In this document: in pieces, positions 21,470 to 34,915 of the stretch | Position numbering within the stretch: the stretch's first letter is position 1 | Layout of the letters: the number at the start of each line of letters is the position of its first letter | The notes under the pieces: model-generated | Told to the model about the DNA's origin: nothing | The model's input: only the letters and a program-made list of their open reading frames with translations | Databases searched by the model: none | Translations under genes and position numbers: made by a program | Origin: Bacteroidota bacterium | Lineage (GTDB): Bacteria > Bacteroidota > Bacteroidia > UKL13-3 | Direction: 5' to 3' | NCBI GenBank assembly: GCA_947485745.1 | Contig: CANKQY010000017.1 | Span: forward strand, 1-37,005 | DNA: 37,005 bases

Positions 21470-24400
21470 CTACTCCTTAATCAATTTCCTTGTAACGGTT
21501 TCACTGCCGTTTTGAACTTTGATGAGGTATATTCCATTTGATAATTTACTCAATGAGGGAATCATTACTTCAGGATTCATTGCATTGATATTTTGCACTT
21601 CCTTGTAGCAGATTTTCCCAAACAAATCTATTATTTCAACTTGAACAGATTCACCTTCGATTTTGCTGAAGCCAATGTTCAATTTGTCGTTAAAAGGGTT
21701 AGGATAAATAACCACCTCATTTTTTGCATCCTCATTAAAATCTACTACTCTTATTGGAGAGTAGGTGAAACTGCCATCAAAATCAAACATTTTTAGCCTA
21801 TAATAAACTTGCTTACTCGAATAAATATTTGCAGCATCTTTATCTTCAAAACTATAGCTCAATAACTTATTTGAGTTACCAGCAGCAGCTAACACATTAA
21901 TCTTTTCGAATTTTACGTTGTTCGAAGCACGCTCAATTTCAAACGATTTGGTATTTAATTCGCTGGCAGTATTCCAAAATAACAATGCATCATCCTTATT
22001 GGCAATTGCTTCAAATTTTGATAAAGAAACTGGCAATGGCGCAAAATCTGTTGTGCCAGTAAAATCAGAGAAATTGGATAAACCAATTACTCCAAAGTTA
22101 TTATTAATAGTATCTACGCTTGTCATGGTTGAACCAAAATGAGTCCATGTGCCATTCACACCAGTTTGTTTTTTCGCCAATTTAATATCCGACATTGAAG
22201 GAACTGTGCCCAACATATTTGGATCAAAATTTAAAGAAAGGTCATAATTATAAGATGAACCACCAGAAGCATTTATTCTCCAGAAAACATCCATGTAATG
22301 AGAACCAGGATTTCTGCCTCCATTTGTTGGATCGCTAATTAAGGCACCAGTATGATAGGTTGCATTGATACTTGAAGGCAAGGTACCAGAGAAAGCCCAA
22401 ACAATCCTTGCAACAGTATCGCCATAAGCTAATAAATGCTGGGTGTTACCGCCGCCTATTGAACCGGTAATAGTTAAATTAGCAGGAACCACTGTTGGTG
22501 TAAATTCATACGCTCCAATATCGGTTGCTCCATTAACTACAGCCTGACTTCTTATGGCACCAGTAATATCTTTATTTACAAAGAAAGACTGTACGCCTCT
22601 GCCATTAGCGGCCCAAGCTGTTGCATTACTTACCAGTGGTTTAAGATCTGTGGTAGAAGTGAAATTAATATTTGAAAACAAAGACCTTCTATCATTTCCT
22701 GAATAAATACTATTTCTAAAGGTGGTATTTAATTGAGCAGGCGTATAATTTACATTGTTTATAAACGAAAAATTAGTTGCTCCAGAGTAATACAAATTAT
22801 TATTCGACTCACTGGTACCAATAACAGCATTTAAATTTTGGTAGTAGGATGCATAACCCAAATTAGAGAATAAAATATTGTTATAAAACCTAACATTATT
22901 GGTTGCCACAACTTGCGGCACTGTTCCACTTGTGGTATTACCAAAAATATAATAAGCATAAGTAGCGGTAGAAGGAGATGCGCATCTTACAGTATTATTT
23001 ACAAAATAAGTGCTTGAGCTGTTTGCAAAATAGATACCATATTGCGTGCTGGTACCATTCATATTAATAACGTTATTCACTACCCTTGCTAATCCAACCT
23101 CTCCATAATAATTACATTGTGCAAGGTATAAGCCGTAAATACCTGCGTTATTTTGAATGTTGTTTCCAACAACCTCCACATCGCCCGAAACACCACTTAA
23201 GAAATAGCTATAATAACCATAAGTAGGACTACCATCAACAAAGTTCCCTCTGATTTTAGGGTTATTGCGACTTAACAAATATAAACTAGACCAATAAGCT
23301 TGGTAGAAAACATTTGAATCAATAACCAAGCCAGGCGTGTATAAATTAATGATATTTTGACCGCCCAAATAAATTGAATAAGAACCAAAGCGAATATTAT
23401 TACTCAAGAATGATAGGTTACTAGCATTGTCTCCATTTGGTCCAAATACTACGGCATATTGATCCGCGGTACTTGTGGTATTGATGCCTTCGAGCACACA
23501 ATTTTTAACCAAAACATTACTGGTGTTTGTGTTATTGCTTGTTAGTTTATTAATCGACAAAACCCTACCAAAAGTTGGGTTGGTATTTCTTATGGTTAAT
23601 CTTTCTAGGTTAATATAAGATACACCGCGCAAGCGAACTGTATAGTTGTCGAGTGTATTTGAGGTGCTTGAAGTAAGGATTACATCTGCTGCATTATTTG
23701 TTAACGATTTAATGGTGATTTTTGCCGAGTCGCTTGTACCCATGATTGTAGTAAAATCTAATTGCCCACTGTAAGTTCCACTCGCTACATTGAAGGTTAC
23801 ATTACCTAAAACACCACCACAATTTAACTTATTGATTGCATCTGCAAAAGTTAGGAAATTAGATACTCCAGAACCAGCAGGATTAATGGTATAAACGCCA
23901 CTTAATGAACCACAGAATGAAACTTGAGCAGTATCATTCAATGTTTGTGGATCAACAATTGAGTTTGGCATTGTGGTATAGGCTTTCATAGTAACCAACG
24001 CTCCCGTAAAATTATACCTTTGGTTTGAACCTAAAGGACCACTGGTTGAATCAAATAATACGGTATCGCTGGCGCCCGGTAATAATGTGCCCGAATAGCT
24101 TCGTGTTCTAATTAATGTATCAACCTTATAACTCACATTGGCAGTAGTTACTGTATTTAAACCAAAGTTTCTAATTACCACTCTCACATTGGTTTGACCA
24201 ATTGCAACGGGTTGTGCAGGCTGTAATATTGAAACAACACCAATATCCTCACCCGGTCTAGAAAATTCATTCACCCCTGCATCAGGAGCGTTTAAACTTC
24301 TCGCGTTACCATCAATATCATCAGTAACCGTAGCCAATACAAATCCCATACTATCTAATTGTGGACTAATGGAACGCAGATTGGTTGTAGAGAAGTAACT

Positions 24401-27400
24401 TGGTTGAGCCCAAATACTATTTGTATCAATGTTTGGAACAATTAATCCAAGAGCTGCTCTATAGTTAGCTAGCGTTTGAGAAATGGTATTAACTGTTCGG
24501 AAAGGATAAGTTGATGGAGAGTTATAAACGTTATTATTGACTAAAATAGTAGTTAAACTAAGTGAAGCAGTATTAGCACACCAAACAGCCATTGCACCAT
24601 TAGGTGAAGAGAAAACATTGTTAACTATTCTAGCATTATTACTGGTTGTAGGATTTGCATAACTATAATACAATGCACAACTTACATACGACGCGTCACC
24701 AGATGTATTGTTAATTGAATTGTGTGCAATATCATTGAAAAGATTACCAGCATCAAAAATTCCAAAAGAGGTAAATGAGCCAGAACCTAATTGGATCATA
24801 TTATTGGCAATAATATTCCTTGAAGTTGAGGTACCATTGTTTTGGAATAGGTACAAACCATAGCCACCTAATTGACCCAAAAATTGGTTTTTGGTGATTG
24901 TTATTCCATTGTCACATTGGTATAAATAGCCCGCAAATGATGAGGTATTTACAAAATTCCCTGTATTTAAAACTCGGTTTTTATGAAATATCAATTGGTT
25001 CTGCCAAAATGCATAGATTCCTGAATAGAATGGTTGAATGAAATCTGAATTTGTTATGCTATTTCCAATTGCTTTAGGAGCCGTTGTATTGTAAAATGAG
25101 GCACCATAATAACCTCCTACCAATCTACAACTATCAATTGAAATAAAGCTTCCGTTATTGCCCGCTGTATTTGGGTTCATTATATTACCTGAAGAAATAA
25201 TTGGAGCAAAAGTGCTAAAACCAACGGTTAACAAAGCAGTCTTTATTGAACACCTGATAAGCTTATTACTATCTGCGGCATTGGTAAACAATACCCCATA
25301 TCCTCCGCCACTAGCTGCGGTAGCTTCAATACTTAAATTGCGGAAAGTAAAGTGCTTGGCACCGTTCATTAAGATGGTTGCTCTTTGAACCGAGCCATCA
25401 TGAATGATTCTAGTTGTGGCAGAATCTGCACCATTGATTAAAACATTATTGGTAGCCGATAAACCTGGAATACCCATGTTAATAGTAAGTTCTCCATTAT
25501 AAACACCTGGCGAAACTTGCAAATTAATTGGTCCAGCTACGCCACATAATTGAATGGTTTGAATGAAGCTTTTTACACTCAAAAAGTTAGTATCCGAAAC
25601 AGCCAAAGCAGGGTTAACGGTATAATATCCAGCTAATGGTGTACAAACAGTTACATTAATGGTATCATTTAAATTTAAGCTATCATTTACCCCATTTGGC
25701 AAAGACGACCAAGCCTTGATCCTATAAAAACCGGGTGTGGCAAAATTAAACACACCTGCAGTATGCGTAACGCTATCTCCATTATTTAAACTTCCGAACC
25801 AACTTGTAGGTGTTTGGTTAACACCATTAATTTGCCAACCAACATTTGCGCTTGTTAAAGTTGCTGCACCATAACTTTTAATTCTTACATCAACATTTTG
25901 AAATCCCAAAGTTAATGGACTTAAAGGACTAAGTAACCTACTCACGCCAGCATCAGCGGCAGGCACACTAAACTCATAAGCTCCAAGATCAGGTGTAGCA
26001 CTGCGCAAAGCACCCGTAACATCTCTTGGTACATCGGTTGTGGCAAACCCAATATTGTTTAAAGTATCATTTCCTGGCTGGTAATATTCTGGTCCAATAT
26101 TGAGCCTAAACAGTGGGTCTGCGGCAACACTATTTTGATCGTATGCATTGGTATTTACTGTTCTCCAAGCTGCAAGTGTGGCGAAATTTGCTGCGTAATA
26201 ACCCACAAAATTATTGGTACCAGCTTGCTTTAAATGCACTGCATTGTTATTTATCACATATCCTGCACCTGTTGTAGCTAAGTAATAGATATACTTGCTT
26301 GCTGAACCTCCCCTATTTAAAAAGAAAATATTATTTCTTAGAATTGTAGTTGTAGGTGTACCAGAGTTATAATATAAATAAGTTACGCCAGTGCTTGTAC
26401 TTGCAGCATGATCTACAATAAAAGTATTATTATAAAACCTCAAATTACTTGCTGAAAGTTGATAAATTCCGTAAATTACTCCATTAGATTTGATATCATA
26501 CATTTGGTTATTGCGGAATATAAGAGGCCTAGTTGCTTGCACATTGGTTGCAATTAAATAATATCCGTAGAATTGGTTAGTTGTGGTTTGAAGCATTTGA
26601 AAAGGCTGCTTAATAATATTATTTTCAAATGTATCCTGAGCCATTCCATTCACCCCATAAAATCCAAAAAATGTAGTTGGTGATGATTTGGTTGGGCGCC
26701 ATAAGGTATTTCCTGAAATCATAGATCCAGCAGAATAAGTTATGTAGAAACCATATACTGTGAAATCACGAATATTATTATTTTTAATAATGTTAAAGGT
26801 ATTTGTTGCATTGGAAGTATTGGTAGGGTTATAAGAAATTCCATAATATGGCCCTCCAGTGCTATTACCTGTAATCAAGTTATTTTCAATTAGGTTAAAC
26901 GATCCGTTTACTCCTGAATTAGTTGGACTTCCTAATGAACTTGTAAATGCTATACCAGCAGATAATGAAGAACCTGTAACTGATCCAATATTAATGGTAC
27001 AATTTTGAATTTTATTATAGTTTGCTGCTGAGGTTAAAATTACGCCTACACCATAAGAAGCATTTAAACTTCTTATAGATAAATTATTTAACGTTAAGTA
27101 ATCAGTTCCAAGTAAATTGAAAATACCAATGCTAGAAGGGTTGGTATTATCGAACTGTAAGGTTTCACCATTGCCATTGATAGTAATGGTATTGGTGGCG
27201 CTTGAGCCGGGAATTACATCAAAGAAAACTTGCTCTGTATATGGGCCGCTGCCTGTAAGCACGTTGGCGGTAACTGCTCCTCCTAATCCACCAATTTTTA
27301 ATAAAGCGGCAAAATTGGTAAAGCTAGTAAATACACCAGGACCAGAGCCAGCAGCATTGATGGTTACTGTTCCAGAAACTTGAGAAGCAGTTAAACCTCC

Positions 27401-30088
27401 TAATAAATCATTAGAAGTATTAGGGTCGGCCAAACCATTTGGTGAAGTAACCCAAACCTGAATATTATAAAGGGTGTTTGCCGCAATGGTAATAGTACCT
27501 AAAGAAATATTTGCACTTACAGTACCTCCAGCTAAGCTTCCAGTGTATAAAACAGGTGTTTGAGTAACACCATTTAAACTCCAATTAAGTGTTGCAGATG
27601 TAAGGGTGGTAGTACCAGCATTTCTTATTTTAGCAGATATAGTTTGTAAACCTGCGGTATAGGGAGCTACTGGAAATACAATCTCACTCATTGCAGCATC
27701 AAGAGCAATAGGACTAGCCTCAAATGCACCTATATCCATAGGTAAAGCTCTAGCAGCACCTGTATAATCTAGTGGAGCAAAAGCAATAAGATTATCACCA
27801 GTACCATCATAAGCACCATCTCTTGGCGAATAATTTGCAGTGACTGGGTTTACAAAATTTGGCGCAAAATCAATACTTTGTTGATCCAAAGTAGGTACAC
27901 CCGCTTTCCAATTTGTTAAAGTTACATAATTTACACCCACGTAATTACACAAGGCATAATTTGGTGAGTTGCTGAAGTAGGCATTCTTATTAAAAGTTGC
28001 ACCAGATGCGAATGAACCCGCTGTAAAAATTGCGTTCTTGGTTGAATTACCCGTTCTAGTAATTGAAATAATGTTATTTCTAAAATCTAAAGTACTACCA
28101 GTTGAAGTTGAAGTATTTGAATACAAACCATAAGTAGTTGCTGTAGCACTTGTAGATGAGGTATTGTCAAAAAGTAGGGTATTGTTATAAATTCTTTGGT
28201 TAAAACTCGACAGTAAATAAAAACCATATAACGGCCCGTCGCCCTTGATATTATGTACTAAGTTATTTGTAATAATATTTGGTTCAAAAAGTAGACCGCT
28301 ATAGTTTATACAATAAAATATAAAAGTTGTATTGGCATTGGTTGGTGAACCACCAAATAAATTAGTAATATTGTTGGCATCTATAGTATCCGCCCTAGAA
28401 CCATTAGATAAATAAAATGCATAAGTAGTAGTAACACTTGTTTTTGTGGGACGTGTTATCAAATTTTTCCTAAACAGGGTTCTATTACTATTACTCCAAT
28501 AGATGCCATACAAGTAAAAATTTCGAATTGTGTTGTTCACAAATCTGTTGGCCGTAAAAGTAGCAGAACTTGTGGCTGGAGCGCCAACAATACCATAATA
28601 CATGCCACCTAAAGTAGGATGACCATTAATTTGGTTATTGATGATATTATTTCGAACACAAGTATTACCCGTTGTGGTTGGAGAAGATGTGCTGTTTGAA
28701 AATACAATACCGGCAGAATTACTGGCTGTAGTTGAAGTAACCGCAGTTAAATCAATGATACTATTTCTTACAGTATTTGAATCACAATTTTGGAAGAAAT
28801 GCACACCCCAACCAAAATTTACACTTGTTGATTTGAAAGTTAAGCTATCTAAGGTAACATGCTTAACAGCTTGAAATCGCAGCACTGCAATATTGGTGGC
28901 ATCACAATTAAATTGCAGCGTGCTTCCATTTCCATTAAAGGTGATATTATTAGTAGCAGATGCACCAGGAATTGCGCTGATGATTAAGTTTTCATTGTAA
29001 ATTCCAGGTGTAACATTTACAGTTACTGCGCCAGAAACGCCACACGATATCAATGCTGAATCTATGCCACCAAAAGTTTTATAATTGGTAGTACCCAATC
29101 CATTAGGATTAACTGTATAAGTACCACTCAATGGACCAGAACAATAGGTAACCAATGTTCTACAAACAGTATCGTTTCCAGGCGTATTATTTCCAGAAAA
29201 ATTTGGGTTGTTTGTCCATGCTTTTAATCCAAAACTTCCTGTAGAAGGAAGGGCAACTTGGGTACTAAAAACTGCATTATAAGTTGCACCAGGCAATATA
29301 GAAATTGAACTCAATGATTGTGTAACAGGTGTATTTAAATCTAATTGATAATTGATATCTACACTGGTGATGGTGGTTGTAGAAATATTTGTTACATTAA
29401 AAGAAACAGTATTGTTACCAACAATTGCTGCATTTGGAGAAGTAAATGCTCCCGACATCAAATCTGCAGTGGTTGCAGGAACTAATAGTGTGTAATCTTC
29501 ATATTCGGCAGAATAAAAACTTGGTCCACAAGGAGGAGGTATTTGGTTCAAACCGTCACTTGCCATTCTAATTCTATAGGCTCCGGCAGAGAGAGTAGCT
29601 GGAATAACAAAGAATCCAGAAACTAGACCGCTCGCTGTAATTTGAGCAGAGGTATAAACCAATTCTGGCAATACTACACCAAAAGTACCATCGTTGTTGT
29701 AGTCTATAAAAATTCTAAACGTGGTTGAATTTCCATTACCAACTTGCACCGTATAAAATACAGTATCACTGGCAGCAGCTCTAACGATGAGATTTGTATA
29801 ATTGAAATAAATAGGTGAACCAGCGCCTGATGGAGTGGTATTATTTATTTGCAACGGCACTGCAGTGGTACCAAACTTAATATTTTGAAAACCCATAGCA
29901 TAGCCGCCAACATTGTTTGCGCCAATACCGGTGCAATAAGTGGGAGGCGTAAAACATTGTGCCTTGACCTCATTGGAAAATGGGATAAAAAGCAACATAA
30001 AAATCCATTTTGGCAGTAGATTAATTTTACTATAAATCATAGACTTGAAGTTGATTTTTTCAAAAGAAAATTGTAAATTATTTTTCAT
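21470..30088 (-). CDS. Giant T9SS-exported surface protein with four CARDB-like/beta-helix modules
   Basis: A 2872-residue secreted protein. A signal peptide (ending near residue 44, NEVKA-Q) precedes a GEVED domain (about 100-203: FRIFIDYNNDGTFG ... AEYEDYTLLV). Four modules of roughly 580 residues follow. Each has a CARDB-like beta-sandwich (starting about 205, 795, 1373, 1945) and an Asn/Ser/Thr-rich parallel beta-helix (starting about 314, 902, 1480, 2056) that opens with a [T/Y]Y/VTxNP/A-like strand and ends in DIGAFE, DLGAYEF, DAGVNEF or DIGAYEF. A further domain (about 2530-2690), a fibronectin-like segment (FWNTASELNTKSFEIERAS) and a type A sorting domain (YPNPFNDKLNIGF ... NGIYLIKVQNGSETVTRKL) end the protein. 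No catalytic site is obvious; adhesion or glycan binding is inferred. A second possible start is Met17 (30040). Confidence 0.9.
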   Translation of the reverse strand: MKNNLQFSFEKINFKSMIYSKINLLPKWIFMLLFIPFSNEVKAQCFTPPTYCTGIGANNVGGYAMGFQNIKFGTTAVPLQINNTTPSGAGSPIYFNYTNLIVRAAASDTVFYTVQVGNGNSTTFRIFIDYNNDGTFGVVLPELVYTSAQITASGLVSGFFVIPATLSAGAYRIRMASDGLNQIPPPCGPSFYSAEYEDYTLLVPATTADLMSGAFTSPNAAIVGNNTVSFNVTNISTTTITSVDINYQLDLNTPVTQSLSSISILPGATYNAVFSTQVALPSTGSFGLKAWTNNPNFSGNNTPGNDTVCRTLVTYCSGPLSGTYTVNPNGLGTTNYKTFGGIDSALISCGVSGAVTVNVTPGIYNENLIISAIPGASATNNITFNGNGSTLQFNCDATNIAVLRFQAVKHVTLDSLTFKSTSVNFGWGVHFFQNCDSNTVRNSIIDLTAVTSTTASNSAGIVFSNSTSSPTTTGNTCVRNNIINNQINGHPTLGGMYYGIVGAPATSSATFTANRFVNNTIRNFYLYGIYWSNSNRTLFRKNLITRPTKTSVTTTYAFYLSNGSRADTIDANNITNLFGGSPTNANTTFIFYCINYSGLLFEPNIITNNLVHNIKGDGPLYGFYLLSSFNQRIYNNTLLFDNTSSTSATATTYGLYSNTSTSTGSTLDFRNNIISITRTGNSTKNAIFTAGSFASGATFNKNAYFSNSPNYALCNYVGVNYVTLTNWKAGVPTLDQQSIDFAPNFVNPVTANYSPRDGAYDGTGDNLIAFAPLDYTGAARALPMDIGAFEASPIALDAAMSEIVFPVAPYTAGLQTISAKIRNAGTTTLTSATLNWSLNGVTQTPVLYTGSLAGGTVSANISLGTITIAANTLYNIQVWVTSPNGLADPNTSNDLLGGLTASQVSGTVTINAAGSGPGVFTSFTNFAALLKIGGLGGAVTANVLTGSGPYTEQVFFDVIPGSSATNTITINGNGETLQFDNTNPSSIGIFNLLGTDYLTLNNLSIRSLNASYGVGVILTSAANYNKIQNCTINIGSVTGSSLSAGIAFTSSLGSPTNSGVNGSFNLIENNLITGNSTGGPYYGISYNPTNTSNATNTFNIIKNNNIRDFTVYGFYITYSAGSMISGNTLWRPTKSSPTTFFGFYGVNGMAQDTFENNIIKQPFQMLQTTTNQFYGYYLIATNVQATRPLIFRNNQMYDIKSNGVIYGIYQLSASNLRFYNNTFIVDHAASTSTGVTYLYYNSGTPTTTILRNNIFFLNRGGSASKYIYYLATTGAGYVINNNAVHLKQAGTNNFVGYYAANFATLAAWRTVNTNAYDQNSVAADPLFRLNIGPEYYQPGNDTLNNIGFATTDVPRDVTGALRSATPDLGAYEFSVPAADAGVSRLLSPLSPLTLGFQNVDVRIKSYGAATLTSANVGWQINGVNQTPTSWFGSLNNGDSVTHTAGVFNFATPGFYRIKAWSSLPNGVNDSLNLNDTINVTVCTPLAGYYTVNPALAVSDTNFLSVKSFIQTIQLCGVAGPINLQVSPGVYNGELTINMGIPGLSATNNVLINGADSATTRIIHDGSVQRATILMNGAKHFTFRNLSIEATAASGGGYGVLFTNAADSNKLIRCSIKTALLTVGFSTFAPIISSGNIMNPNTAGNNGSFISIDSCRLVGGYYGASFYNTTAPKAIGNSITNSDFIQPFYSGIYAFWQNQLIFHKNRVLNTGNFVNTSSFAGYLYQCDNGITITKNQFLGQLGGYGLYLFQNNGTSTSRNIIANNMIQLGSGSFTSFGIFDAGNLFNDIAHNSINNTSGDASYVSCALYYSYANPTTSNNARIVNNVFSSPNGAMAVWCANTASLSLTTILVNNNVYNSPSTYPFRTVNTISQTLANYRAALGLIVPNIDTNSIWAQPSYFSTTNLRSISPQLDSMGFVLATVTDDIDGNARSLNAPDAGVNEFSRPGEDIGVVSILQPAQPVAIGQTNVRVVIRNFGLNTVTTANVSYKVDTLIRTRSYSGTLLPGASDTVLFDSTSGPLGSNQRYNFTGALVTMKAYTTMPNSIVDPQTLNDTAQVSFCGSLSGVYTINPAGSGVSNFLTFADAINKLNCGGVLGNVTFNVASGTYSGQLDFTTIMGTSDSAKITIKSLTNNAADVILTSSTSNTLDNYTVRLRGVSYINLERLTIRNTNPTFGRVLSINKLTSNNTNTSNVLVKNCVLEGINTTSTADQYAVVFGPNGDNASNLSFLSNNIRFGSYSIYLGGQNIINLYTPGLVIDSNVFYQAYWSSLYLLSRNNPKIRGNFVDGSPTYGYYSYFLSGVSGDVEVVGNNIQNNAGIYGLYLAQCNYYGEVGLARVVNNVINMNGTSTQYGIYFANSSSTYFVNNTVRCASPSTATYAYYIFGNTTSGTVPQVVATNNVRFYNNILFSNLGYASYYQNLNAVIGTSESNNNLYYSGATNFSFINNVNYTPAQLNTTFRNSIYSGNDRRSLFSNINFTSTTDLKPLVSNATAWAANGRGVQSFFVNKDITGAIRSQAVVNGATDIGAYEFTPTVVPANLTITGSIGGGNTQHLLAYGDTVARIVWAFSGTLPSSINATYHTGALISDPTNGGRNPGSHYMDVFWRINASGGSSYNYDLSLNFDPNMLGTVPSMSDIKLAKKQTGVNGTWTHFGSTMTSVDTINNNFGVIGLSNFSDFTGTTDFAPLPVSLSKFEAIANKDDALLFWNTASELNTKSFEIERASNNVKFEKINVLAAAGNSNKLLSYSFEDKDAANIYSSKQVYYRLKMFDFDGSFTYSPIRVVDFNEDAKNEVVIYPNPFNDKLNIGFSKIEGESVQVEIIDLFGKICYKEVQNINAMNPEVMIPSLSKLSNGIYLIKVQNGSETVTRKLIKE

Positions 30089-31973: not shown

Positions 31974-32840
31974 TTAATGACCAGCTTTAATAGCCTTTGA
32001 TTTTATATCCTTTAAGGCTTTTAAATTACCTGCATTACATTTACACTTTTCAGGAGATTCTTTGGTAAAATACATCAACTCACTATTAGCTGCGCTCAGT
32101 ACAAGTTTATTACAGAACTTTTCATCTTTTGAATAATAGTAATAAGCTAGGCCATTATCTTGCCACTTGATTGCCTTTTGAATTTCTTCAATTTCTACTT
32201 CTTCCACATCGCCATCAAATAAAGTTGGTGCATCTTCTTTTCCTTTTAGCTCTATTTGTTTCCCCTCTATTAGAAGTTTTTTATCAACTAATTGTGCTTT
32301 ATCACTTGGGTATTTACTCATCAAACTGCCAGGGCTAATTTCGCTGTTACTTTTTGCTTGGACGGCAAAGTTTAAGTAATTATTCATTAGTTGAATGGCT
32401 CTTGTTGATTCAGTTTCCCAATCATTCGTATCAATTCTATTTCCACAAAATCCATAAACCAATAAATTCTCTCGCACTATTCTGCGGCTAAATTTTTTGG
32501 TAATTACAAAAGCATTCATGTCTTCTTCTGAGCTTGCCACCCTTGCTTTTATTTTTGAACCTTTTGATTTACTAAAATATAAAAAAGCGAAATCACCTTT
32601 TTTATAGCGATATAATGCAGTGTCTTCCGCAAATTCAAAACCGGTAAAAGTCCAATAGCGCTCAACTGCAGCAATAATGGAAGCGCTGTAAGCACTGTCT
32701 TGAAAAAGTACTACAACTAAACGTGTATCTTTGAATTTCTCAATATCTTCCTTCTTCTTAAAGGTACCAAATTGTGCAAAAGCGTTAGCGAAGGCCAATA
32801 CAAATGCAATCATTAAAATGTTTTTCTTCATGTTCATCAT
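31974..32840 (-). CDS. Secreted protein of unknown function
   Basis: A 288-residue protein. The signal peptide (NILMIAFVLAFANAFAQ) predicts export. The mature part starts with a KFKDTRLVVVLFQD segment, then alternating strands and helices, ends in a cysteine cluster (EKCKCNAGNL) and is strongly lysine/glutamate-rich. Three nearby Met codons make the exact start uncertain (MMNMKKN); MKKN is the most typical signal-peptide start. I recognise no domain. Confidence 0.7.
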   Translation of the reverse strand: MMNMKKNILMIAFVLAFANAFAQFGTFKKKEDIEKFKDTRLVVVLFQDSAYSASIIAAVERYWTFTGFEFAEDTALYRYKKGDFAFLYFSKSKGSKIKARVASSEEDMNAFVITKKFSRRIVRENLLVYGFCGNRIDTNDWETESTRAIQLMNNYLNFAVQAKSNSEISPGSLMSKYPSDKAQLVDKKLLIEGKQIELKGKEDAPTLFDGDVEEVEIEEIQKAIKWQDNGLAYYYYSKDEKFCNKLVLSAANSELMYFTKESPEKCKCNAGNLKALKDIKSKAIKAGH

Positions 32841-32942: not shown

Positions 32943-33482
32943 TTATGCTACTTCTAGCTCCTTGTTATATCCGTATAATTTGCCGTAAACGGCCAAACTT
33001 GTTCTCAATTGTCGTCTGGCAACAAATATCCTAGTTTTTACAGTTCCAATAGGAATATTTAGAATGGCTGCTATTTCGTGGTATTTAAAACCTTTCACAT
33101 TCATGGTAAATGGCTTTTGCAAACTCAAAGGCATACTGGCTATTGCATTTTCAATATCTCGCTGCATAAACTTTTGCTCACCTTCATTTTTCACCAAAGT
33201 TGAAACACTATCTAAATAATAATCATTGTCAGTTTGGTCGATAAACGTATTTCGCTTTACCATTCTGCGATAATTATTGATGAAAGAATTTTTCATAATG
33301 GTGTATAACCAACCTTTTAAATTGGTACCGCTTTCAAATTTATCTTGATAAGTTAGAGCCTTCAACATAGTTTCTTGCAAAAGGTCATTGGTGTCTTCAA
33401 CATTACGGGTTAATTGGTAGGCATAATGCCTAAGTGGTTTTGCCTCTTTCTGTATCCTGTTTTTGAATTCTATTGAAGTCAT
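32943..33482 (-). CDS. ECF-type RNA polymerase sigma factor
   Basis: A 179-residue sigma-70 family factor with only regions 2 and 4. Region 2 is about 10-80 (LRHYAYQLTRNVEDTNDLLQ; LKGWLYTIMKNSFINNYRR) and region 4 about 120-170 (MPLSLQKPFTMNVKGFKYHE; IAAILNIPIGTVKTRIFVAR, a helix-turn-helix). It directs RNA polymerase to a special promoter set. No anti-sigma gene is adjacent, so control is by other means. Upstream, a housekeeping-type promoter overlaps one of three 32-bp palindromes, suggesting the gene is tightly regulated or autoregulated. The ATG is at 33482. Confidence 0.93.
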   Translation of the reverse strand: MTSIEFKNRIQKEAKPLRHYAYQLTRNVEDTNDLLQETMLKALTYQDKFESGTNLKGWLYTIMKNSFINNYRRMVKRNTFIDQTDNDYYLDSVSTLVKNEGEQKFMQRDIENAIASMPLSLQKPFTMNVKGFKYHEIAAILNIPIGTVKTRIFVARRQLRTSLAVYGKLYGYNKELEVA

Positions 33483-33483
33483 T

Positions 33484-33515
33484 TTGTTTAATTATTTAAT
33501 TGAAATGTTAAACAA
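33484..33515. repeat. Spaced palindrome site 1: TTGTTTA-N18-TAAACAA
   Basis: Arms at 33484-33490 and 33509-33515. The site begins one base upstream of the sigma-gene start codon, and its right arm overlaps the predicted -7 element (33513-33520), so a bound protein would block that promoter. Confidence 0.85.
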
Positions 33516-33544
33516 AGATAAATTGAAAAAAATGACAATACCAA
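33513..33544 (-). promoter_or_regulatory. Promoter of the ECF sigma factor gene
   Basis: The minus strand reads TTGG (33544-33541), 20 bases, TATCTTTG (33520-33513). TTG-N21-TAnnTTTG agrees with the Bacteroidota housekeeping consensus, 30 bases before the ATG. Confidence 0.6.
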
Positions 33545-33550
33545 CGTTTT

Positions 33551-33582
33551 TTGTTTAATAAAAGTAGAAAAAGACTAAACAA
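33551..33582. repeat. Spaced palindrome site 2: TTGTTTA-N18-TAAACAA
   Basis: Arms at 33551-33557 and 33576-33582, same 32-bp architecture as sites 1 and 3. The site lies just upstream of the predicted -33 element of the sigma gene (7 bases away), a position that could serve activation or cooperative repression. Confidence 0.85.
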
Positions 33583-33741
33583 AATGCAAATACTTGAATT
33601 TCAATACAATATTTATTGATATGATCAATTAATTAATAATATAATAACTCAAGCAAGGCAATTTTCAACTAAGTAGTTTTAAAACATACAACCAATAAAT
33701 ATTGATGTATTATTAACTATTTTCAAAAAAATTAAAACATT

Positions 33742-33773
33742 TTGTTTAAAATTCTATTTAATATGCTAAACAA
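33742..33773. repeat. Spaced palindrome site 3: TTGTTTA-N18-TAAACAA
   Basis: Arms at 33742-33748 and 33767-33773. It ends 49 bases before the -7 element of the pterin operon. The 11-mer CATTTTGTTTA at its left edge is shared exactly with site 1 (33480-33490) and, inverted, with the right edge of site 2 (33576-33586). Confidence 0.85.
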
Positions 33774-33837: not shown

Positions 33838-34248
33838 ATGGAGATTACTGTTTCAAGAAAAGCTCATTTTAATGCTGCACACAGACTAAATGTAATTAAA
33901 TGGACTGAGCAAGAGAATAAGGAATATTTTGGCTTATGTAACAATTTAAATTATCATGGACATAACTATGATTTAATTGTTTCTGTTGCTGGCCAAGTTG
34001 ACCCCATTTCTGGTTATTTAATTGATATGAAATGGTTAGGTAAAATTATTAAAACTAAAATTGAGGATAGGTTCGACCATAAAAATTTAAATTTAGACTG
34101 CATTGAATTTAAAGAAACAAATCCTACCTGCGAAAACATAGCAATTGTAATTTGGAATAAAATTAGAGAAGAATTGCCCGAGAACTTAAAATTAAAGATT
34201 ACACTATATGAAACAGAAAGAAACTTCGTTGAATACAACGGAAATTAA
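33838..34248 (+). CDS. 6-pyruvoyl-tetrahydropterin synthase / QueD family enzyme
   Basis: A 136-residue T-fold enzyme. Zinc ligands H15 (AAHRL) and H40/H42 (NYHGHNYDL), the catalytic-type Cys34 in FGLCNNLNYHGHNY, the Asp80-His81 pair (FDHKNL) and Glu126 (LYETERNFVEY) are all present. The form CNN-x3-HGHNY is closer to true PTPS (tetrahydrobiopterin pathway) than to E. coli QueD, but both activities occur in this family. The folE start lies inside its last codons, and FolE makes the substrate 7,8-dihydroneopterin triphosphate, so the two enzymes act in sequence. It could serve queuosine or a biopterin-type cofactor. Confidence 0.88.
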   Translation: MEITVSRKAHFNAAHRLNVIKWTEQENKEYFGLCNNLNYHGHNYDLIVSVAGQVDPISGYLIDMKWLGKIIKTKIEDRFDHKNLNLDCIEFKETNPTCENIAIVIWNKIREELPENLKLKITLYETERNFVEYNGN

Positions 34249-34915
34249 AGACCTTGGCTCACCATATTATGGTGATGACCACGAAGGGTTTTCAATGGAA
34301 ACACCAATACGCGAAGATGCTTTTGCGTTGGATGATGAGTTAAAAATTGAATTGATTCAAAAACACTTCAAGGAAATCATGCTCATTCTTGGCTTAGACT
34401 TAAATGACGATTCACTAAAAGGAACGCCGCATAGAGTAGCTAAGATGTATGTAACAGAAATGTTTAAAGGGCTTGACCCAAAAAACATGCCAGTTGCCAA
34501 ACTATTTGAAAACAAGTACAACTACAAAAACATGTTGGTAGAGAAAAATATTTCTTTCCATAGTGTTTGTGAGCATCATTTTGTTCCTATTATTGGAAAA
34601 GCACATGTAGCTTATATCCCAAATGGTAAAGTGGTTGGTTTATCAAAATTAAATAGAATTGTTCGCTACTTTGCCCAACGTCCACAAGTTCAAGAAAGGA
34701 TGACGGTTCAAATACTAAACATGCTCAAAGAGGCATTAAACACAAATGATGTGGCTGTTATCATTGAAGCAGATCACATGTGTGTTGCCATGCGTGGGGT
34801 GCAAGATGTAACCAGCAGTACTGTTACTGCAGATTATAGTGGCAAGTTCCTAGATATGAAAACCAGGGAAGAATTCATCAGAATGATTTCTCTGGAAAAA
34901 TTAGGTAGTAACTAA
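34208..34915 (+). CDS. folE: GTP cyclohydrolase I
   Basis: A 235-residue FolE that opens GTP to 7,8-dihydroneopterin triphosphate, entry to folate and other pterins. Zinc ligands C121, H124 (HSVCEHHFVP) and C192 (HMCVAMRGV) are present, as are GTPHRVAKM and LSKLNRIVRYFAQRPQVQER. The N-terminal extension (LGSPYYGDDHEGFSMETPIR) resembles other Bacteroidota FolE proteins and supports the start at 34208, which overlaps the PTPS/QueD-like gene by 41 bases in another frame. A shorter protein from Met30 is possible. Confidence 0.96.
   Translation: MKQKETSLNTTEIKDLGSPYYGDDHEGFSMETPIREDAFALDDELKIELIQKHFKEIMLILGLDLNDDSLKGTPHRVAKMYVTEMFKGLDPKNMPVAKLFENKYNYKNMLVEKNISFHSVCEHHFVPIIGKAHVAYIPNGKVVGLSKLNRIVRYFAQRPQVQERMTVQILNMLKEALNTNDVAVIIEADHMCVAMRGVQDVTSSTVTADYSGKFLDMKTREEFIRMISLEKLGSN

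Follow-up and report, generated by a model that had tools for sequence, protein, structure and literature searches.

The operators described for CarH, a MerR-type photoreceptor that uses coenzyme B12, are tandem 11-bp direct repeats in Thermus thermophilus, Bacillus megaterium and the Myxococcales (PMC9304148, PMC8156234; these papers, like the others cited below, are drawn on in part), with four repeats in B. megaterium and partly degenerate ones in myxobacteria (PMC9304148, PMC8156234). The published half-site is nnnnTnnACAn, with the core TnnACAn (PMC9304148), and an inverted repeat that was once proposed for CarA of M. xanthus was later read as direct repeats (PMC9304148). In Pseudomonas, class II LitR sites have the form T(G/A)TACA-N12-TGTA(C/T)A, and one site lies over the -35 region while another lies between the transcription start and the ATG (PMC9758184). 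Here we analyze a stretch of 37,005 nucleotides from a Bacteroidota genome (contig CANKQY010000017.1 of assembly GCA_947485745.1; 'the window' means this whole stretch), in which three copies of the inverted repeat TTGTTTA-N18-TAAACAA stand between divergent genes for an extracytoplasmic function (ECF) sigma factor and a 6-pyruvoyl-tetrahydropterin synthase family protein (PTPS). Comparison of sequences makes it probable that a MerR regulator of the CarH/LitR family, a coenzyme-B12 photoreceptor, uses the three palindromes as its operators, through which it would govern the sigma gene and the divergent pterin genes.

The first-pass annotation, made from the letters of the window, had described three perfect palindromes of one architecture, and both architecture and coordinates are borne out exactly. 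Operator 1 (33484-33515), the proximal one, lies 1 bp from the start codon of the sigma gene; operator 2 (33551-33582), in the middle, follows at 67 bp start to start; and operator 3 (33742-33773), the distal one, lies 64 bp before the PTPS start codon. None of them is assigned to a strand. Throughout the assembly (2.75 Mb in 139 contigs, 96.5% complete), perfect N18 matches occur in those three places only. If one mismatch is allowed the assembly has 9 places compared with 10 for a reversed control pattern, so that the six further places are background, and a wider regulon reached through the N18 motif in this genome was rejected for that reason. The same holds within the window, where 12 matches with up to three mismatches compare with 12.5 expected and only the perfect palindromes are therefore informative. 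Beside the most palindrome-like of the other one-mismatch places (L007), a neighbouring frame resembles by eye a phenylalanyl-tRNA synthetase chain.

Within the order to which the window belongs, the motif was searched in 64 genomes, and the later protein searches for carH, rhodopsin and sigma genes covered 62. A perfect N18 match is present in 48 of the 64, at 82 places compared with 21 for the reversed control (both sums over the table), which confirms that the pairing exceeds chance frequency, as had been proposed. The motif search gave 29 loci of relatives, 21 of which have a sigma gene beside the match and a divergent PTPS gene, mostly with folE too; in the other eight the match lies elsewhere, in one case at a carH gene (L033). 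Sigma orthologues with an E value of 1e-40 or better were found in 53 of the 62 genomes, and 52 upstream regions were analyzed, the 53rd sigma gene being at a contig edge (G039) and left out. These orthologous regions keep both arms and spacing: an N18 site is found with up to two mismatches in 52/52, with up to one in 48/52 and without any in 39/52. Summed over the regions, the N18 sites number 60 without a mismatch, 44 with one and 24 with two. No other spacing between 8 and 30 yields a perfect site, and one-mismatch pairs number at most 7 at any of them (N10).

The positions of the sites are kept as well. With up to two mismatches, a proximal site is present in 50/52 regions at -31 to -34, abutting the sigma start codon, and a middle site in 46/52, starting at -95 to -102. 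Both arms are conserved as a palindrome, in the middle and distal sites too. The spacers had been called unrelated; they are not wholly so, since in relatives the arms tend to be prolonged into the spacer, in the form TTGTTTAA(C)...TTAAACAA. Sigma and PTPS diverge in all 51 genomes whose locus contains both (G032, with no PTPS gene in the locus, was left out of this count). An outer site faces PTPS in 31 of the 51, and the suggestion that the pterin operon may also be controlled gains from its position, 57-66 bp from the PTPS start in 22 of these 31; in the others of the 31 the distance falls between 29 and 106 bp.

Outside this arrangement the same sites recur at genes for CarH itself. Within the order, one genome (G028) has a perfect site directly at the start of a carH-crtI-crtB run, and a crt-linked carH (G032) has the symmetric variant TTGTCTA...TAGACAA, again with N18 and with the same change in both arms. 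From a CarH alignment search we took the best 80 of at least 584 confirmed relatives, all from named records. Of these 80 carH genes, 17 have a perfect N18 site in the roughly 300 nt before them, among them those of Dyadobacter, Cytophaga aurantiaca, Agriterribacter humi and Pedobacter frigidisoli; N19 accounts for 2 and every other spacing from 8 to 30 for none, and in shuffled carH-upstream sequences an N18 site with up to one mismatch occurs in a mean of 0.04 loci. There are two main layouts, [site]-carH-crtI-crtB and carH-[sites]-sigma-crtI-crtB, the latter as in Algoriphagus. Over the 80 loci, N18 sites with up to one mismatch number 68 in the 48,050 bp upstream of carH, sigma or crtI versus 10 in 772,172 bp elsewhere, and five of those ten sit at a sigma position that was missed by gene calling or cut by the contig end (L241, L242, L244). 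For N19 the same comparison gives 11 versus 3, and for the next best spacing in the target stretches, N11, 6 versus 1. Location at carH or at carotenoid and light-response genes, as expected of CarH/LitR operators, is thus found in this set of loci.

An automatic rule that accepts N18 or N19 with up to one mismatch finds a site before sigma in 27 of the 35 loci with a sigma gene behind carH, a site before carH or crtI in 16 of the 17 with crtI behind carH and no called sigma, and a site in 8 of the 28 with neither gene called. The rule misses four loci in which inspection places the sites at or before the sigma position: the sigma start is called too far upstream in L241, sigma is uncalled because of an overlapping frame in L242, the contig ends behind the sites in L244, and one of two sigma genes was overwritten in L280. 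The sigma gene linked to carH is the orthologue of the window's sigma gene. Specifically, that of L269 matches it at 54%, the next best in the window genome being 31%, and the carH-linked gene of L221, L251 and L253 is, in each of these genomes, the best match of the window sigma, at 42-51% (positions matched by arithmetic). The locus of L251, from the Bacteroidales, has the order carH-site-sigma-PTPS-folE, i.e., the cluster of the window joined to carH, with an N19 site of one mismatch. Conversely, A. humi has a perfect site before carH-crtI-crtB while its best relative of the window sigma is 29% identical, and a metagenome assembly (L245) likewise has the site with a best sigma relative of 28%; the site therefore occurs independently of this sigma factor.

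The distances between sites vary between groups. In the pairs of sites that precede sigma, the distance is 44-45 bp in Algoriphagus and Belliella (L221, L223, L227, L271, L277) and 62-63 bp in three assemblies titled Flammeovirgaceae or Cyclobacteriaceae (L230, L241, L250), a difference of nearly two helical turns. N19 variants stand before carH in L224, L233, L239, L263 and L268, from Arenibacter, where the right arm is TAGACAA, Pedobacter paludis and Spirosoma.

The arms themselves allow a comparison with CarH that uses no gene neighbourhood within a set. Read on the other strand, the half-site is nTGTnnA, which the arm TTGTTTA / TAAACAA fits, and recognition of the arm by a CarH-type domain should leave positions 1, 5 and 6 free to vary. 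Among the 256 arms of sites with up to two mismatches upstream of sigma, 83 of 92 substitutions fall at positions 1, 5 or 6, and so do 26 of the 30 in the carH loci (up to one mismatch). For the control, matches with up to two mismatches at five wrong spacings, the count is 68 of 268. The variation tolerated in the arms is thus almost wholly that of the CarH half-site; note that kinship among the genomes means that p-values for these counts are not to be taken literally.

In Bacteroidota promoters the -7 element is TAnnTTTG. Such an element, TATCTTTG, lies at 33513-33520 on the minus strand, and a -33-like TTG, a tentative assignment, lies on the same strand at 33542-33544, 21 nt before it and between operators 1 and 2. 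The claim that site 1 separates the sigma start codon from the -7 element and overlaps that element therefore stands (TATCTTTG, minus strand 33520-33513). On the minus strand the arm of operator 1 has TTTG in common with the -7-like element, and operator 2 is found just upstream of the -33-like one. These assignments would place the sigma core promoter between operators 1 and 2, with its -7-like element overlapping operator 1. Across the order, TAnnTTTG occurs in this register in 38/50 proximal sites, as opposed to 3/46 middle and 3/32 distal ones, and it lies, in another register, inside 12 of the 17 carH-proximal sites, where shuffled sequences give a mean of 0.4. At both kinds of gene the sites thus overlap the core promoter of the target, as CarH/LitR operators do. 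A scan of the region for the sigma-70 consensus found 4 matches with 5.0 expected, i.e., background. The idea of a hairpin in the leader RNA of sigma was dropped on positional grounds, the middle and distal sites being outside the likely transcript.

A search of the window genome for MerR_1 proteins gave two, and one of them, encoded on another contig (G000:C20:28888-29829, minus strand), has a B12-binding domain. This CarH homologue of 314 aa, to judge from its sequence the best candidate for the regulator in this genome, joins an N-terminal MerR domain (PF13411) to a B12-binding_2 four-helix bundle (PF02607), and its best relatives in the PDB are the T. thermophilus LitR/CarH entries 3WHP and 5C8D (E about 2e-19). 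The Wx9EH motif is kept, W153, E163 and H164 being invariant in 12 aligned sequences, as are E200, H202 and G205, whose pattern we take to be the ExHxxG B12-binding His motif. A structural model (mean predicted local distance difference test score 81) has T. thermophilus CarH as all of its 12 best PDB fold matches, with large root-mean-square deviation over the whole chain and template-modelling (TM) scores of only 0.42-0.50 by query length, a low value that probably comes from the arrangement of the domains. For the cobalamin domain alone TM reaches 0.75 by target length, and the model appears to have the overall CarH fold, including the Rossmann domain. Because the window genome also encodes a cobalamin adenosyltransferase, adenosylcobalamin (AdoCbl) could be made if cobalamin is available. 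The carH gene is itself divergent from a DUF1731-type epimerase gene (L011:1783-2682), with 27 bp between the called starts.

The most likely mode of action is repression in the dark by CarH-AdoCbl covering the -7 element, with release in the light. The support for this is positional: proximal and carH sites overlap the -7 element, which favours occlusion. In the dark, AdoCbl-bound CarH oligomers would occupy each palindrome by placing a single DNA-binding domain on either arm. Operators 1 and 2, flanking the sigma promoter and covering the -7 element, would keep RNA polymerase off, and operator 3 would act on the divergent PTPS-folE operon. Light would break the cobalt-carbon bond, CarH would leave, and the ECF sigma factor and the pterin genes would be made; the sigma factor would then switch on light-protection genes. 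The earlier suggestion of operators for a dimeric regulator of sigma, and possibly of the divergent pterin operon, is in this way supported and receives a strong candidate by name.

A number of observations weigh against control by CarH. In the window genome carH does not adjoin the sites and its own upstream region has none, for which reason autoregulation of this gene was rejected. The carH genes examined in the order have no upstream site with up to one mismatch either, except for the second, crt-linked carH of G028, and the order thus gives no sign of autoregulation. No carH was found in two genomes with sites and sigma (G006, G060), both of them fragmented assemblies. The best NCBIfam match of the candidate protein, TransRegCarH, scores 93 bits, below the 400-bit cut-off for the CarH equivalog. 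Within or next to the sites, tandem 11-bp TnnACA pairs occur at the level of shuffled controls (2/68 versus 1.8, and 1/61 versus 2.0). By the automatic rule a site is missing from 20/28 loci with neither sigma nor crtI called, 8/35 with sigma and 1/17 with crtI, and the site-poor first group tells against a universal rule. In two Pedobacter genomes, which have several similar sigma factors, the best relative of the window sigma is outside the carH locus. Finally, related genomes are not independent, so that the site counts given here overstate the number of events. The co-occurrence patterns in the rest of the order are compatible with a role for CarH, but they are confounded by kinship: one genome (G037) has carH with neither sigma nor a perfect site, one (G056) has none of the three, and six (G019-G023, G030) have only a divergent carH of 36-45% identity, no sigma and no perfect site.

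The absence of sites beside carH in the window's order, where the orthologous carH genes have none upstream, would also be expected if another, unlinked dimeric regulator bound the palindromes and the sites coincided with carH-linked promoters through a common light or stress response. That known CarH operators are direct repeats (PMC9304148) points the same way. However, such a regulator would leave aside that the sites recur beside carH in several Bacteroidota groups and in both layouts, and that the variable arm positions are those left free by the CarH half-site, and we regard it as unlikely. A different possibility is that a CarH/LitR protein does bind here but activates, as is stated for light-activated LitR at litS of Streptomyces (PMC12705666). 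The middle and distal sites, upstream of the core promoter elements, are in the usual place for an activator, but the overlap of the -7 element with the proximal sites and those at carH favours occlusion, and CarH and many LitR/CarH members are described as repressors (PMC8156234, PMC9758184); activation therefore seems improbable to us. The first-pass annotation had also offered that the ECF factor itself reads the palindromes as promoter-like sites, because the arms start 25 bases apart, a spacing that resembles -33/-7, and the proximal arm has the TTTG of the -7-like element. This we consider very improbable. An ECF promoter would have an asymmetric -35/-10 pair whose register to the start is fixed. 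Here the arms are symmetric, even at the middle and distal positions, where few sites have the -7-like element in that register; TAnnTTTG shifts in register from one promoter to another; and the perfect site before carH-crtI in A. humi occurs without a close relative of the sigma factor. Chance repetition in AT-rich DNA, suggested by the abundance of single arms and the background level of one-mismatch pairs in the window genome, is refuted for practical purposes by the confinement of the perfect triplet to one intergenic region and by an N18 site in 52/52 regions, where none of the other spacings tested yields a perfect one.

In some species rhodopsin could be a direct target as well. Rhodopsin genes are present in 35/62 genomes of the order, and 36 of the 38 matches were scanned (those in L124 and L130 were left out). 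Eight of the 36 have an N18 site with one or two mismatches near the start (L041, L042, L043, L045, L046, L100, L102, L107), and where this was checked the site begins 35-39 or 114 nt ahead of the called start. A one-mismatch site of this kind in the same genus precedes a rhodopsin gene that is followed by one for lycopene cyclase, and by Pfam a lycopene cyclase gene follows rhodopsin in L042 and L045. The window genome's own rhodopsin gene has no site and was rejected as a target. Elsewhere in the order, a one-mismatch site (L053:1837-1868, in G015) stands before a run of genes for a short-chain dehydrogenase, a flavin reductase and a photolyase-related (DPRP) protein, and may be a further light-response target or chance.

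It is possible to go further, and we do so as a speculation that we would ourselves call doubtful: CarH of Bacteroidota might read a wide inverted operator of fixed N18 spacing, in contrast to the direct-repeat binding solved for CarH of Thermus, with one oligomer bridging two palindromes about six helical turns apart and so clamping the sigma promoter in a loop that light dissolves, and such a switch might govern a phylum-wide light regulon of ECF sigma, carotenoid, rhodopsin and pterin genes.

The genes around the sites are as follows. The sigma gene (32943-33482, minus strand; 179 aa), orthologous to the sigma gene after carH in many Bacteroidota, is divergent from the PTPS gene (33838-34248, plus strand), whose end is overlapped by the gene for GTP cyclohydrolase I, folE (34208-34915, plus strand). 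Behind sigma lies a gene for a 288-aa protein (31974-32840, minus strand) in a synteny kept in many relatives. The protein has no Pfam or NCBIfam match, no search aimed at anti-sigma factors having been made, and the lack of a family match pointing to an anti-sigma factor beside sigma fits control at the level of transcription. By eye its start looks like a signal peptide. Farther off, a single open reading frame of 2872 aa occupies 21470-30088 of the window on the minus strand.

If the assignment is correct, a motif that was unexplained becomes tied to a named photoreceptor family, light control in Bacteroidota gains an operator code that can be tested, and the motif's inverted N18 geometry raises the question of whether CarH has a second mode of binding DNA. 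An operator this short and well defined could also serve in gene switches that respond to green light through B12.

LitS, a sigma factor of Streptomyces, is of the ECF class. The LitR-LitS-crt system resembles the present locus in that a sigma gene, whose product drives the crtE promoter, is under the control of a B12 photoreceptor from the same family (PMC12705666). It differs in that LitR is described as promoting litS in the light and in belonging to another phylum, and the part of that paper drawn on mentions no palindrome (PMC12705666). Closer in descent, the merR-rpoE-crt cluster of Echinicola has the same gene content (merR, sigma, crt) in Bacteroidota (PMC8683446); the likeness is one of gene content only, the words 'light' and 'promoter' being absent from its main text by term search (PMC8683446). 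The open-licence literature gave no earlier description of the N18 motif or of a Bacteroidota CarH operator, which is a weak negative.

The class II LitR sites of Pseudomonas are alike in coming as two per promoter, and the light-inducible genes there include folE, which is in the operon here too (PMC9758184). They differ in having N12 rather than N18 and arms of TGTACA rather than TGTTTA/TAAACA (PMC9758184), and a further difference is that PmlR2 of Pseudomonas works with a light-oxygen-voltage (LOV) photoreceptor (PMC9758184).

Compared with the CarH operators themselves, the half-sites here are inverted and 18 bp apart, and the sites come in pairs about 65 bp apart. Inverted N18 spacing is not described for CarH in the literature examined. 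Because the half-site is matched while the 11-bp direct repeats equal the shuffled controls, the canonical direct-repeat operator is rejected and the sites would be a variant geometry. With the CarH operators of Thermus, Bacillus and Myxococcales they have in common the half-site TnnACA and the overlap with promoter elements (PMC9304148, PMC8156234), and also light-induced carotenoid genes as targets and a regulator that joins MerR and B12-binding domains with Wx9EH (PMC9304148, PMC8156234). To the operators characterised in the literature examined, those of Thermus, Bacillus, Myxococcales and Pseudomonas, the present sites would add a case from Bacteroidota.
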